Positions 37,893 to 46,605 of a stretch of DNA of 64,000 nt are shown here, piece after piece. A program made the translations under genes and the position numbers. The stretch comes from Hydrogenobacter thermophilus TK-6. GTDB lineage: Bacteria; Aquificota; Aquificia; Aquificales; Aquificaceae. The stretch is taken from NCBI RefSeq assembly GCF_000010785.1, contig NC_013799.1, positions 186,001 through 250,000 on the forward strand, read 5' to 3'. The notes below the pieces were generated by a model that did not search any database, was not told where the DNA came from, and was given only the letters and a program-made list of their open reading frames with translations. Every line of letters begins with the position of its first letter. Position 1 is the stretch's first letter.

Positions 37893-38849
37893 ATGAAATA
37901 TCTGAGAAAAAAAGACTTCAAGGAGACAAAAGTAAGAATTCTTACAGCGTTATACGAGAGACTCAAAGAGCTCTCTATAGAAAAAGGGGTGAGTTTAAAT
38001 GTCCTGTTTAATAAAGCGTTGGAGAGTTTTTTAAGAGAGCAGGAAAAAGAGGATGCTACCGAAGCTATAGAAAAGCAAAACTTGTTTTACGATGATGGGC
38101 AGATAAGATTGCTGCTCAATGACTTCTTGAAAGTGGATCTGGAAGAGCTAAGGGGGAAAGTGAATTTAATAGTGACCTCTCCTCCTTACAATGTGGGGAT
38201 GGAGTATGGGACTATAGACGATAGCATGGGATATGAGGAGTATTTGCGCTTTACTGAGAGGTATCTTAAAAGGTTTTACCAACTGCTTGCGGATGATGGA
38301 AGAGTGTGTCTTAACATACCCCTTGACAAAAACAAGGGAGGTATTCAGAGCGTATATGCTGATGTGGTGTGCCTGGCAAAGAAAGTAGGACTCAAATATC
38401 AGAGCACAATAGTCTGGAATGAGCAAAACATCTCAAGGAGAACTGCCTGGGGTAGCTGGCTGTCTGCATCCGCTCCATACATTATAGCCCCAGTAGAGAT
38501 GGTAGTCTTGCTATATAAGGAAGACTGGAAAAGAAGAGACAGGGGAAAGACCACCATAAGCAGGGAAGAGTTCATAGAGTGGACAAACGGAATGTGGACT
38601 TTCCCAGGAGAGAACAGGAAAGCTCTTGGTCATCCGGCTCCTTTCCCTCTTGAACTACCGCTAAGGTGTATAAAGCTATTCTCCTATGAGGGAGACCTTG
38701 TCCTTGACCCTTTTGTTGGTTCAGGAACTACCATGGTAGCCTGCAGAAAGTTAAACAGAAAGGGTGTGGGGATTGATATAAATAAAAATTATCTCAAACT
38801 TGCAGTAAAGAGAATTAAGGAGGTTTCCCCAGCCATGTTCTCTTGGTAA
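37893..38849 (+). CDS. Beta-class DNA methyltransferase with ribbon-helix-helix-like N-terminus
   Basis: A 318-residue amino-methyltransferase (N4-cytosine or N6-adenine). The catalytic motif IV is VTSPPYN (residues 94-100) and the SAM-binding motif I comes last, LDPFVGSGTT (271-280), the order of the beta class. Residues 10-50 (ETKVRILTALYERLKELSIE and KGVSLNVLFNKALESFLREQ) look like a CopG/Arc-type ribbon-helix-helix DNA-binding head, which is unusual and could repress the divergent promoters. The -10 box is only seven bases before the ATG, so the mRNA is probably leaderless. It pairs with the endonuclease at 37210. Target sequence unknown. Confidence 0.88.
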   Translation: MKYLRKKDFKETKVRILTALYERLKELSIEKGVSLNVLFNKALESFLREQEKEDATEAIEKQNLFYDDGQIRLLLNDFLKVDLEELRGKVNLIVTSPPYNVGMEYGTIDDSMGYEEYLRFTERYLKRFYQLLADDGRVCLNIPLDKNKGGIQSVYADVVCLAKKVGLKYQSTIVWNEQNISRRTAWGSWLSASAPYIIAPVEMVVLLYKEDWKRRDRGKTTISREEFIEWTNGMWTFPGENRKALGHPAPFPLELPLRCIKLFSYEGDLVLDPFVGSGTTMVACRKLNRKGVGIDINKNYLKLAVKRIKEVSPAMFSW

Positions 38850-43299: not shown

Positions 43300-43430
43300 G
43301 AGCCCGTTTAAAAAATCTTGACACATTGAGGGAAAAAGAGTAGAAAAAATCATAAGCAAAAGCCAGAATAAAAAAATGGTGTGTTTATGAGCACTCAAAA
43401 TCAAATACTTGGGATTTTTTAAACGGACTC
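43300..43430. repeat. 18-base inverted repeat pair near a TnpB remnant
   Basis: The 18 bases at 43300-43317 and 43413-43430 are inverted copies with one mismatch (core CCGTTTAAAAAATC on one strand). They enclose 95 bases with no gene. The right copy runs directly into the TnpB-like fragment, and the left copy lies in the codons upstream of rpe, so each copy encodes the residues DFLNGL on opposite strands. It looks like debris of a mobile element end. Confidence 0.6.
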
Positions 43431-43439
43431 AGGTATTTG

Positions 43440-43650
43440 GTGGAAAACTACGATTACATGAGCTTTGAAGACCTAAACATAAGAGGACTTGTTCGGGACA
43501 GCAACTTAGCCAAGCTGATACTTGTGGTTTTAGAGTTCCTAAGACTTTAGCAGAGAGGCTCCATGAGTGTCCCGAGTGCGGGGCTGTGATGGACAGGGAT
43601 TACAACGCGAGTGTGAACATACTGAGGAAAGGGCTCATCCACCTTACCCC
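43440..43650 (+). pseudogene. tnpB: TnpB (IS200/IS605 family OrfB) remnant
   Basis: Two pieces in different frames match the conserved C-terminal part of TnpB. The first reads YDYMSFEDLNIRGLVRDSNL up to a stop at 43548-43550, covering the catalytic-glutamate region (FEDLN) of the RuvC-like domain. The second, from 43556, reads LHECPECGAVMDRDYNASVN and NILRKG, covering half of the zinc finger and the last catalytic aspartate (DRDYNA). Sequence between them, including the first half of the zinc finger, is missing. The rest of the gene and a TnpA are absent, so this is a decayed fragment. Confidence 0.82.
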
Positions 43651-43655
43651 TTTAC

Positions 43656-45530
43656 TCAAAGTTCTATGCTTACCAGCATGCCAAATGGGACAGCAAGACC
43701 ATTCAAGAAGAGAGTGCCGGGTCTAAGGGAAGGGAGCACTCTAAGAAGCTCAAGCTGAGACTCCTCAAAGAACACAGAAACTGCATCAAGGTCATTTTTT
43801 GTGATTAGCCTGAAAATGGCTTGGGTATTGAGCTGGGACAAAACATACTTGCTTATGTTGGCGGGTCTTTGGGTGATGGCTATAAGACCAACTCCAAACT
43901 TTCTGCCTTCTAAAGCTATCCTTTTGGTCATAGTATAAGAGATGTTTTCCCTGCCAAAAGGAATGTCCAATGCTCCCCTTTCCGGTACAAAGTTGTGGGC
44001 TTCCTCAAGGACTATTATCCTCCTTTTGCCGTCAAGCCTTGAAAGTATGAAAATTTCCTTCATAAGAAGTCCCACTATGTTTATTCGTGCATCCAGATTT
44101 AGCACATCTTTTAGGTCATACAGGACAATATCCTTGTCCGAATACAGTCCCTTCTTTAGCATATGGTATATATCCACCTGATTTTTTATAGAGCTGTCCC
44201 CAAAGTCCCGCTTAAGTATGGTAAGAAAGTCTTCCACCTCGCTTCTCAGAGATGGTGGTGCAGACAAAAGAAGTAGCTCTTCTAAACTCTTTTCTTTGTA
44301 AGATATGAGTTCAAGGTCAGGCTTTAGGGACCTTCTGAGAGTCATAAAAAAAGTTTTCTCTTCCAAAGACCTTTCCCCTATGTCCACACCGTAAGACTTA
44401 AAAAGGTCTTTGAGATCATCCGTATGTATAGGAAAAAGTGTGTAAGGTAGTTTTATGTACTCTATCCTTTCCTTATCCACCATTAATTTTTCGTAATACT
44501 CCCCAAAAATATCAATGACAAAAAACTTAACCTCATCGCTTCCTAAATGCTCTATAAGCCTCCTGACGAAGGTAGTCTTTCCTGCACCTGTTGTGCCAAT
44601 AACCGCCATATGCATGCTGGATATCTTGGTAATATCAAGGTAAACATTAAGATTTGTATTTAGCAGTCTTCCCACATAAGCTTTTTTCTCCATAGGATAT
44701 CCAGAAAGGTTCATGCTCATGACTCTCTGCATATCTGGGTCTTCCTCTTCCATCTTGAAAAGTTGTGTGCCCACAGGAAGAGGTACCAGAGGTACTCCAA
44801 AGTAACTCTCCTTCTCTTCCTCCCTCACCTTTTTATACTCACACAAGACTCTGAGTTCACCTATCTTTACATCACCAATTTCATTGGCATATGCCTTTAC
44901 AAAGGCTAAAATCCAGTCCTTGTCCTTGTTTCTTCCAAGAAAAACTCCCTCATCAAGGCTCACAGTTTTTACTGAAGTTAACTTGCACAGCATGATACCT
45001 CTTTCGGTGGGAGTTTTTAGAAAGCACTGCTGTGGAATCTCTTCAAGAAGTAAAGCACGGGAAGAGAGAGAGTTTTCTGAAGATATGACTATTGCAACAG
45101 TATTGGGATTTAACTCTTCAGACTCTTTCTTTAGATTTTCATAGAGACTTAAAAGTTCCTCAATTTTTTCTGGCTGTGTAATCTCAACTACCGCTTCAAA
45201 GTTTTCCTGATGCGCTCCCGCATAGGTAAGATTAGCAGAACCAACAAAGGCTCTTCTGTCGTCAATTATCAAAAACTTGGCATGAAGTCTGGGATTTAGG
45301 TATATCCTTCCCCTTACGCTCCTTACAGCCCTGAACACCCTAAAGTCCGTAATTTCCATATCCTTTCTTTCACCAGCTCTTACAAAGACCTCCACCTTTA
45401 CGCCATCTTTTATACCTTTGAGCAGATTTTCAAGTATGTCCCCCTTTATCCACGCTGACACTATCTTAATGCTCTCTTGAGCAGATAGTGTTGCCTCCTC
45501 AAGCTTTTTTATAAGCTCCCCTTCTGTCAT
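43656..45530 (-). CDS. PLD nuclease-like domain fused to HerA/FtsK-type ATPase
   Basis: A 624-residue fusion. Residues 1-125 are a phospholipase-D-type domain with one HKD motif, LHAKFLIIDDRRAFVGSANL (His83, Lys85, Asp90, then GSAN), so a dimer would be needed for a full nuclease centre. A linker of about 130 residues follows. Residues 280-624 are a HerA-like hexameric ATPase with Walker A IGTTGAGKTTF (311-321), Walker B RRIIVLEEAHNFVPE, the segment GRKFGVGLIAITQRPANI, and a FRLITKNDLDAV tail. HerA partners with nucleases in archaeal end resection and in bacterial anti-phage systems. Here nuclease and motor are one chain. It overlaps the GNAT gene by 4 bases and ends against the TnpB fragment. 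Confidence 0.85.
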   Translation of the reverse strand: MTEGELIKKLEEATLSAQESIKIVSAWIKGDILENLLKGIKDGVKVEVFVRAGERKDMEITDFRVFRAVRSVRGRIYLNPRLHAKFLIIDDRRAFVGSANLTYAGAHQENFEAVVEITQPEKIEELLSLYENLKKESEELNPNTVAIVISSENSLSSRALLLEEIPQQCFLKTPTERGIMLCKLTSVKTVSLDEGVFLGRNKDKDWILAFVKAYANEIGDVKIGELRVLCEYKKVREEEKESYFGVPLVPLPVGTQLFKMEEEDPDMQRVMSMNLSGYPMEKKAYVGRLLNTNLNVYLDITKISSMHMAVIGTTGAGKTTFVRRLIEHLGSDEVKFFVIDIFGEYYEKLMVDKERIEYIKLPYTLFPIHTDDLKDLFKSYGVDIGERSLEEKTFFMTLRRSLKPDLELISYKEKSLEELLLLSAPPSLRSEVEDFLTILKRDFGDSSIKNQVDIYHMLKKGLYSDKDIVLYDLKDVLNLDARINIVGLLMKEIFILSRLDGKRRIIVLEEAHNFVPERGALDIPFGRENISYTMTKRIALEGRKFGVGLIAITQRPANISKYVLSQLNTQAIFRLITKNDLDAVSVFFEESQLELLRVLPSLRPGTLFLNGLAVPFGMLVSIEL

Positions 45531-46006
45531 AACTTCTTTACCATCCTTATCCAGTAATTAAACCTATCTTTGCTTTCAAATCCCAGCCATCTGTAAAAGT
45601 TTATAGCCTCGTAGTTTTCCTCACCTACCCAAAGTTCCGCAGTATCAAGCCCTCTACTTTTAAAGTACTCTATAACCTTCTCTACAAGAGCCTTTCCTAC
45701 ACCTTTGCTTCTATAGTCTGGAAGCACCACAAGCTCGTGAATAGCACCTACCACTTTACCCTCCCTCTTGCTAAACCAATTTCCGTCGCTGGCAACAAAG
45801 CCTATAATTTGCCCTTCATACTTTGCCACAAATATACCAGCCACATCACGCCTGAAGAGCCAGTTGAGATATGCTATCACATCATCTATGTGGGTGTAGG
45901 AGTACTCTTCAAGACCTTTGTAGCCTTTTAAGTAAACCTGCGCCAGCTCATGTATGTCCTTTTCCGAAGCTTTTTCTATAGAAAACTCCAAAGCTTGTTT
46001 CTTCAT
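45527..46006 (-). CDS. GNAT-family N-acetyltransferase
   Basis: A 159-residue acetyl-CoA-dependent acetyltransferase. The CoA-binding motif is ELVVLPDYRSKGVGKALVEKV (read as pieces), followed by AELWVGEENYEAINFYRWLGF, the C-terminal GNAT motif. The acceptor cannot be told; the form is similar to RimI-like and small-molecule acetylases. It overlaps lolA upstream and the PLD-HerA gene downstream by 4 bases each, so it is translationally coupled to both. Confidence 0.9.
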   Translation of the reverse strand: MKKQALEFSIEKASEKDIHELAQVYLKGYKGLEEYSYTHIDDVIAYLNWLFRRDVAGIFVAKYEGQIIGFVASDGNWFSKREGKVVGAIHELVVLPDYRSKGVGKALVEKVIEYFKSRGLDTAELWVGEENYEAINFYRWLGFESKDRFNYWIRMVKKL

Positions 46007-46605
46007 AACCTTTGCACCTTAACACCGCTGGGTAGCCTGATCCTAAATAGCTCTTCGGAGGGTGAAAAATTCTTACTTAAGCTCAAAAACTCCACTGTGG
46101 TGGTAGTACCATCTTTATCTTCCACCCTGATGCTTCTTATGTTAAGCTCTTCATCAAGTTCTACATAAACCCTATAAAAGTTATCGTCAATAACCTTTGG
46201 TTTAAGGACAAGTGTAGTGTTATTATCCCTTTTTATCTCTCCCACCTGGTCAAAGACCTCACTGATGGGCTTGGAAAGGAGGAAAAGTGCCTCAACCACT
46301 GCTGACCTGTTGTTTTCCACCTTGTCTATGATGGCGCTTTTTTCCTTAGGGTAGTAAAGGAGGATCTCTCTACCGTCTGATACTATCAGCATACGCTCTG
46401 GCTGTTCGTATTCTATTCTAAACTTACCACCCTTTTGCGCGTAGAAAAACCCTTTAGACACATCCGCTTTGGGATACCATGAATAAGAAACCTTCTGAAC
46501 AAAGGCAACCTTAAGGGTTTTTATCTCGCTGAGCTTCTTCTCCAGCATAGAAAAAGCCTGTCCCCAAGATATGATGGGTATTAATACCAGAAGCAGATAC
46601 CTCAT
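46003..46605 (-). CDS. lolA: LolA-like outer-membrane lipoprotein carrier
   Basis: A 200-residue periplasmic protein that carries lipoproteins across the periplasm. It has a short signal peptide (MRYLLLVLIPIISWGQAF) and the LolA pattern: LKVAFVQKVSYSW, GFFYAQKGGKFRIEYEQPER, VSDGREILLYYPKEKSAI, and a hydrophobic half-barrel with GVKVQRL at the end. Length is normal. It overlaps the M28 peptidase and GNAT genes. It fits with lptD and lptB as part of outer-membrane biogenesis in this window. Confidence 0.85.
   Translation of the reverse strand: MRYLLLVLIPIISWGQAFSMLEKKLSEIKTLKVAFVQKVSYSWYPKADVSKGFFYAQKGGKFRIEYEQPERMLIVSDGREILLYYPKEKSAIIDKVENNRSAVVEALFLLSKPISEVFDQVGEIKRDNNTTLVLKPKVIDDNFYRVYVELDEELNIRSIRVEDKDGTTTTVEFLSLSKNFSPSEELFRIRLPSGVKVQRL

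Follow-up and report, generated by a model that had tools for sequence, protein, structure and literature searches.

What does a bacterial gene do that joins a nuclease-type domain to a DNA-pumping motor in one chain, and does it belong to repair or to defence? This question is raised by a gene of Hydrogenobacter thermophilus TK-6 lying in a stretch of 64,000 nucleotides (NC_013799.1, positions 186,001 to 250,000), which we analyzed as a whole and call the window. Its predicted product, here named PLD-HerA, combines a phospholipase D (PLD) type domain with a HerA ATPase. Our preferred answer, to which we give a probability of about one half on the basis of the comparisons below, is that PLD-HerA is a self-contained motor-nuclease, with a side branch of the family in defence loci. 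In H. thermophilus, its most likely task is the processing of chromosomal DNA ends, together with SbcCD and NurA.

Architecture, conservation, and distribution of PLD-HerA

The gene and the elements of its product are positioned as follows in the window:

43656..45530, minus strand: PLD-HerA gene, ATG start, 624 aa (ORF, translation, Pfam)
45111..45530, minus strand: single-HKD PLD nuclease-type domain, residues 1-140 (Pfam, profiles, AlphaFold2 model, Foldseek)
45231..45284, minus strand: HKD active-site motif HAKFLIIDDRRAFVGSAN (H83, K85, D90, G97, S98, N100)
44682..45089, minus strand: HAS-like beta barrel, residues ~148-283 (4d2i profile alignment, model strands)
43659..44678, minus strand: HerA/FtsK-type ATPase motor, residues 285-624 (DUF87 2.3e-21, Foldseek)
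44574..44597, minus strand: Walker A GTTGAGKT, residues 312-319 (G312, G317, and K318 identical in 45/45)
44001..44018, minus strand: Walker B region with E509 and E510 (both identical in 45/45)

The protein matches the Pfam models PLDc_2 at residues 16-131 (E = 3.2e-15) and DUF87/HerA at residues 285-493 (E = 2.3e-21), both well above the curated cut-offs, and the PLD active-site motif at residues 81-103 (1.8e-9). Each chain carries one HKD motif, H83-x-K85-x4-D90...G97-S98-x-N100. No CARF domain was seen in the window protein with Pfam. In a profile alignment, residues 148-623 correspond to residues 2-461 of S. solfataricus HerA (4d2i), and those canonical HerAs from other Aquificota that align from their start enter the alignment at model position 147-150, close to their N-termini. 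As homology to canonical HerA extends from position ~147-150 to the C-terminus, the motor is complete, including the HAS-like barrel; the latter was seen by the 4d2i alignment and in the model strands, and the Pfam HAS-barrel model had no match in the window protein. Judged from these alignments, PLD-HerA is a PLD module of ~145 residues preceding an entire HerA.

Structure predictions point the same way. AlphaFold2 modeled the full single chain with a pLDDT of 86.4 and a pTM of 0.80, and the PLD part folded alone with values of 89.9 and 0.86, respectively. The best PDB match of the chain according to Foldseek is 9x1m, the HerA of Thermococcus HerA-NurA (E = 4e-32), and HerAs of other origin follow, among them the motors from DUF4297 and SIR2 systems. 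The PLD domain matched NucT and Nuc (E = 2-4e-7) as well as other PLD proteins, and profile matches were obtained with NucT (6ehi, 3.2e-7, across the entire domain) and Nuc (1byr, 2.1e-4). A sequence-only reading of this DNA had proposed that a single-HKD PLD domain and a complete HerA share one polypeptide; the ORF is exactly as it described, and Pfam, profiles, and the AlphaFold2 model all agree. By analogy with HerA, the window protein probably forms a hexamer with six PLD modules.

H83, K85, D90, S98, and N100 are invariant in the 45 full-length Aquificota homologs, and G97 is present in 44 of them. The motor residues K318, E509, E510, R543, Q554, and R555 are likewise invariant in 45/45, and both active sites are retained even at ~33% identity. 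Since the catalytic residues are identical in all 45 sequences, both the PLD and the ATPase activities appear to be under selection. This conservation bears on the reading in which the PLD domain lacks DNase function and acts on lipids or RNA or is structural, the protein then being a membrane- or RNA-linked ATPase. PLD folds do comprise lipases and inactive proteins such as FAM83-type domains, which counts against a role in end processing as well. Against a non-DNase function stand the invariance of every catalytic residue, the identity of the nearest single-HKD structures, which are the nucleases NucT and Nuc, and the fusion of the domain to a DNA-pump family; we consider such a function very improbable. 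We infer that PLD-HerA would have nuclease activity with DNA as its substrate.

Profile searches gave matches in 48 of the 64 genomes of the family, some of them weak, partial, or canonical HerA, and in 113 of the 136 genomes of its heat-loving phylum, the Aquificota, canonical HerA and partial matches included. These numbers rule out chance or misassembly as the source of the fusion. Outside the Aquificota, an HKD motif and a HerA in one frame were found in at least three cases, in WOR-3, in a Synergistota MAG, and in an unclassified bacterium (L091, L095, and L094, respectively), the distribution beyond the phylum being a lower bound. In the tree of the HerA part, the 21 sampled PLD-HerAs, from the Aquificota and these three sources, all fall into a single clade (SH-aLRT 99) that excludes both canonical HerA and a HerA type encoded beside long NurA-like genes. 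The domain pair thus recurs in other genomes and is not a one-off, and the single clade is consistent with one fusion event. No description of the fusion was found in the literature searched, and an earlier mention is possible.

According to the full-length phylogeny, the window clade groups by genus within the Aquificaceae, the Hydrogenothermaceae form their own clade, and another clade, that we named clade 2, unites the Desulfurobacteriaceae with five Aquificaceae copies. The copy of one Hydrogenothermaceae genome (G064) falls among those of the Aquificaceae, indicating that transfers do occur. In most of the family, descent nevertheless looks vertical, and the window PLD-HerA looks like a long-inherited chromosomal gene.

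Genomic surroundings of the window gene and NurA

Three neighboring features are needed to describe the locus:

45527..46006, minus strand: GNAT acetyltransferase (Pfam 5.6e-24), ATGA overlap with PLD-HerA
46003..46605, minus strand: LolA (Pfam 1.2e-30), ATGA overlap with GNAT
~43469..43633, plus strand: TnpB C-terminal scrap (CPECGAVMDRDYNASVNIL), between PLD-herA and rpe (PF07282, E = 8.9e-7)

The gene order in the window is ilvE-type aminotransferase, M28 peptidase, lolA, GNAT, PLD-HerA, rpe, and lptD-like (ilvE and lptD named by eye). Both ATGA overlaps, GNAT/PLD-HerA and lolA/GNAT, are real, as expected from the coupling to a GNAT gene and a housekeeping chain that had been read from the sequence. 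The order lolA-GNAT-PLDherA is common to other genomes of the same genus (g1) and to one genome of genus g8 (G050). In other genera, PLD-HerA neighbors D-Tyr-tRNA deacylase, coaE and moeA, and in further genera glycosyltransferase and homoserine dehydrogenase genes, or obg (named by eye). The GNAT gene is a single-copy core gene, present in 61 of the 64 genomes of the family. Genus g4 has it as well, and PLD-HerA is missing from the complete g4 genomes; as the GNAT gene also occurs without PLD-HerA, it is probably not a dedicated partner. At one locus (L038:1577-3993), the core GNAT, 49% identical to that of the window, adjoins a clade-2 PLD-HerA, downstream and not upstream of it, which reflects either chance or a weak functional link.

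Of 80 proteins encoded around PLD-HerA at 15 loci, taken from the main clade of the Aquificaceae and from the Hydrogenothermaceae, three matched PADLOC models, one of them as an ArsR-type regulator; the yardstick for this score is the difference between clades. No SIR2 or DUF4297 partner is adjacent to the window gene, whose neighbors are GNAT and rpe, or is found among the PADLOC matches of the neighbors. No match to Csm1/Cas10 was obtained in the window genome, and PLD-HerA is its only DUF87/HerA match. Elsewhere in the window, an apparently solitary type II-like DNA methyltransferase is encoded at 37893-38849 on the plus strand (PADLOC MTase_II, 8e-88).

The decayed TnpB gene beside PLD-HerA had been taken as the mark of an accessory gene. 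The remnant itself is confirmed by its PF07282 match; its meaning is not. The gap between PLD-herA and rpe measures ~23 bp in the sister species G028, where the scrap is missing, compared with ~405 bp in the window, and the scrap is therefore a later insertion. By this comparison, it was inserted after the gene order was set and is uninformative on PLD-HerA. An inverted repeat beside the scrap (43303-43432, ATTTTTTAAACGGGCTCA / ATTTTTTAAACGGACTCA) is possibly an old transposon end.

The NurA gene of the window genome lies 28.7 kb from PLD-HerA, not adjacent to it. SbcD (Mre11) is also encoded, and PDDEXK_1, the AddB/RecB nuclease domain, had no match in the window genome, which does not encode an AddAB/RecBCD-type nuclease. 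Of the 35 Aquificaceae genomes with a completeness of 94% or more, 28 encode both PLD-HerA and NurA, three NurA alone, and four neither. As these four genomes come from a single genus and count as one event, the p value of 7e-4 for co-occurrence, computed like the other association tests from presence/absence sets compiled by hand from profile-search results, exaggerates the association.

These distributions also bear on the reading that PLD-HerA of the Aquificaceae replaced a canonical HerA that was lost and now drives NurA, with NurA as the main nuclease and the PLD domain as an accessory endonuclease or DNA clamp. Canonical HerA (HAS-barrel and DUF87, ~520 aa) is present in the Hydrogenothermaceae and Desulfurobacteriaceae; no clear one was found in the sampled Aquificaceae by the DUF87 search, the exceptions being distant HerAs of 599 aa in G010 and 679 aa in G004. 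Most Aquificaceae retain NurA. Moreover, NurA lies 1.3-2.9 kb from PLD-HerA in ten Hydrogenothermaceae genomes (genera g17 and g18), and at ~6.4-6.7 kb in G104 and G061. In the g17/g18 clusters that were read out, NurA, PLD-HerA, and obg are all on the same strand. However, most of these cases represent a single arrangement of one family, in which obg, plus at most a few small genes, separates NurA from PLD-HerA. If the barrel carries three PLD dimers, NurA might also find no room to dock. Furthermore, two small Aquificaceae genomes, G037 (L067) and G043 (L066), keep NurA with no HerA-type ATPase detected, whereas two genomes of family f3 (G110 and G111) encode PLD-HerA without NurA, so that there is no obligate partnership. 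In families f2 and f5, NurA and canonical HerA occur together, with or without PLD-HerA. We regard a takeover of the NurA motor role as quite unlikely, although a partnership between NurA and PLD-HerA is possible in view of the gene linkage.

Two further observations concern NurA. Many Aquificota genomes encode a stand-alone nurA beside obg or close to it (L058-L062, L065-L067, and L152), an unexpected conserved pairing. At four other Aquificota loci (L173:2838-6839, L174:3287-7359, L179:3429-7074, and L176:1926-5949), we identified a cassette encoding in order a ~140-aa protein (ITACGxKK...SAKYGLISG; three of the four loci), a NurA-matching protein of 548-604 aa, and a HerA of 599-651 aa; in L174, a helicase-like gene of 919 aa adjoins. 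This cassette looks like a separate HerA-NurA-like system, possibly defensive.

Clade 2 in CRISPR, restriction, and mobile settings

The relatives of clade 2 are found in different company. In two Desulfurobacteriaceae genera, PLD-HerA directly follows a type III-A operon, with the order cas10, csm2, csm3, csm4, csm5, and cas6 in G131 (L153:1503-10579) and cas10, csm2, csm3, csm4, and csm5 in G135 (L159:2788-10762). In both, the start of PLD-HerA overlaps the preceding gene, and Cas10 carries HD and GGDD motifs. A related locus (G133, L166) has the downstream flank of L159 with the csm genes missing, and there PLD-HerA is frameshifted. In a third genus (G127, L156), a type III restriction system, consisting of a methyltransferase gene and its restriction partner, lies near the gene. 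The clade-2 copy of L044 has an AbiEii-type gene nearby; a phage integrase is encoded upstream, at a distance of a few genes. Finally, plasmid ece1 of Aquifex aeolicus VF5 carries a broken PLD-HerA, annotated as two genes and 56% identical to the L153 copy (L167:10001-11942), which suggests, from this sequence similarity, a transfer of PLD-HerA onto the plasmid. It is the sole full-length match in a plasmid tblastn search.

All of these contexts, together with the separation of several Aquificaceae clade-2 copies from the vertical clade, argue for a reading in which the window PLD-HerA is a stably kept anti-phage or anti-plasmid nuclease of the SIR2-HerA or DUF4297-HerA kind, with its effector fused, and the defence and mobile contexts of this clade count against end processing. 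In SIR2-HerA and DUF4297-HerA, a HerA ring carries an effector enzyme on its barrel side. PLD-HerA has a similar motor fold and would likewise place an effector at the barrel side of a HerA ring; it differs in that the effector is fused and of the PLD type, and in that the window copy lies outside a defence locus. The NCBIfam antiphage HerA models score the window protein at 73-89 bits, with cut-offs of 800-850. The PADLOC model "HerA, type III coevolved" (PDLC01055), which like the clade-2 genes ties a HerA to type III CRISPR loci, matches the window protein (1.5e-21) and clade-2 copies (7e-19 and 2e-26); unlike PLD-HerA, this model of 532 positions, whose match begins at residue 230 of the window protein, shows no PLD domain.

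Several results weigh against this defence function in the window lineage. Its neighbors are housekeeping genes with few PADLOC matches, its phylogeny is mostly family-congruent, and no relatives were found on viral contigs or phages in two viral-contig scans and a phage tblastn search. The association between PLD-HerA and Csm1 is not significant in the Aquificaceae (Fisher p 0.69) or in families f2 and f5 (p 0.16). Together with the missing Cas10 in the window genome, these values argue against an obligate dependence on type III CRISPR and make the type III link a local feature: PLD-HerA lies with the type III cas genes in L153 and L159, not in the window nor in most relatives. The sequence-only reading had suspected a defence gene and proposed scoring the neighbors for defence functions. 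For the window clade, the score is that of a housekeeping setting and the suspicion did not hold; for clade 2, with type III-A CRISPR loci in two genera and type III restriction in a third, it held in part. For the window copy we consider defence a possible but doubtful function. A scenario for the whole family is in our view unlikely: PLD-HerA would be a previously uncharacterized family of one-chain motor-nucleases, each HerA ring having PLD active sites of its own, with the Aquificaceae copy replacing canonical HerA in end processing and the sister clade recruited as the DNA-destroying arm of type III-A CRISPR.

Proposed end processing by a fused motor-nuclease

The reading that we prefer, end processing by PLD-HerA, is supported by its being the sole HerA of the genome, by the housekeeping neighbors, by the mostly family- and genus-congruent tree, and by the presence of NurA and SbcD. 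Further points in its favor are the invariant active sites, the likeness of the PLD part to NucT and Nuc, the single PLD-HerA clade, the missing PDDEXK_1 match, the co-occurrence with NurA and the g17/g18 linkage to it, and the failure to find phage or viral-contig relatives. On the other side, PLD-HerA is dispensable, being absent from seven of the 35 Aquificaceae genomes and from many genomes of families f2 and f5.

On the HerA analogy, PLD-HerA would form a hexameric ring pumping double-stranded DNA. Single-HKD PLD enzymes such as Nuc and BfiI usually build each active site from two chains. As PLD-HerA has one HKD motif per chain and the fold of Nuc and NucT, its PLD domains are expected to pair in the same way, and a hexamer would then carry three such sites above the pore. 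The entrance of the ring might thus hold as many as six single-HKD domains, paired into three dimers of the NucT/Nuc kind. The one motif per chain and the fold are shared with Nuc and NucT, and also with BfiI, NgoFVII, and DrmC of DISARM; these proteins occur on their own or with other fusion partners, whereas in PLD-HerA a translocase carries the domain.

The resemblance to HerA-NurA, the DNA-end resection complex of Saccharolobus, Deinococcus, and Thermococcus, extends to the motor fold, the barrel and ATPase, and the catalytic residues, and NurA is encoded elsewhere in most PLD-HerA genomes. In contrast, the nuclease of PLD-HerA has another fold and is covalently joined before the barrel, the gene lies outside a nurA-mre11-rad50 operon, and the clade stands apart from canonical HerA. 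The HerA hexamer of Deinococcus bears NurA on its HAS-barrel face and feeds DNA to this nuclease (PMC9960219). The PLD module, joined just before the barrel, would lie on the same face of the ring, and the PLD dimers would cut the DNA as the motor reels it in. We infer the role in end processing, and any contact with NurA, from this arrangement and from the gene content of the genome.

Whereas the HerA motors known so far act with separate nucleases of several folds, PLD-HerA has its nuclease built in, and the coupling between pumping and cutting is testable in one gene, with no need to assemble a complex. Closely related proteins lie among housekeeping genes in one lineage but at CRISPR or restriction loci in another, a contrast by which the line between repair and defence becomes testable. 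For H. thermophilus, PLD-HerA is a candidate DNA-end processor in a genome without AddAB/RecBCD-type nucleases.
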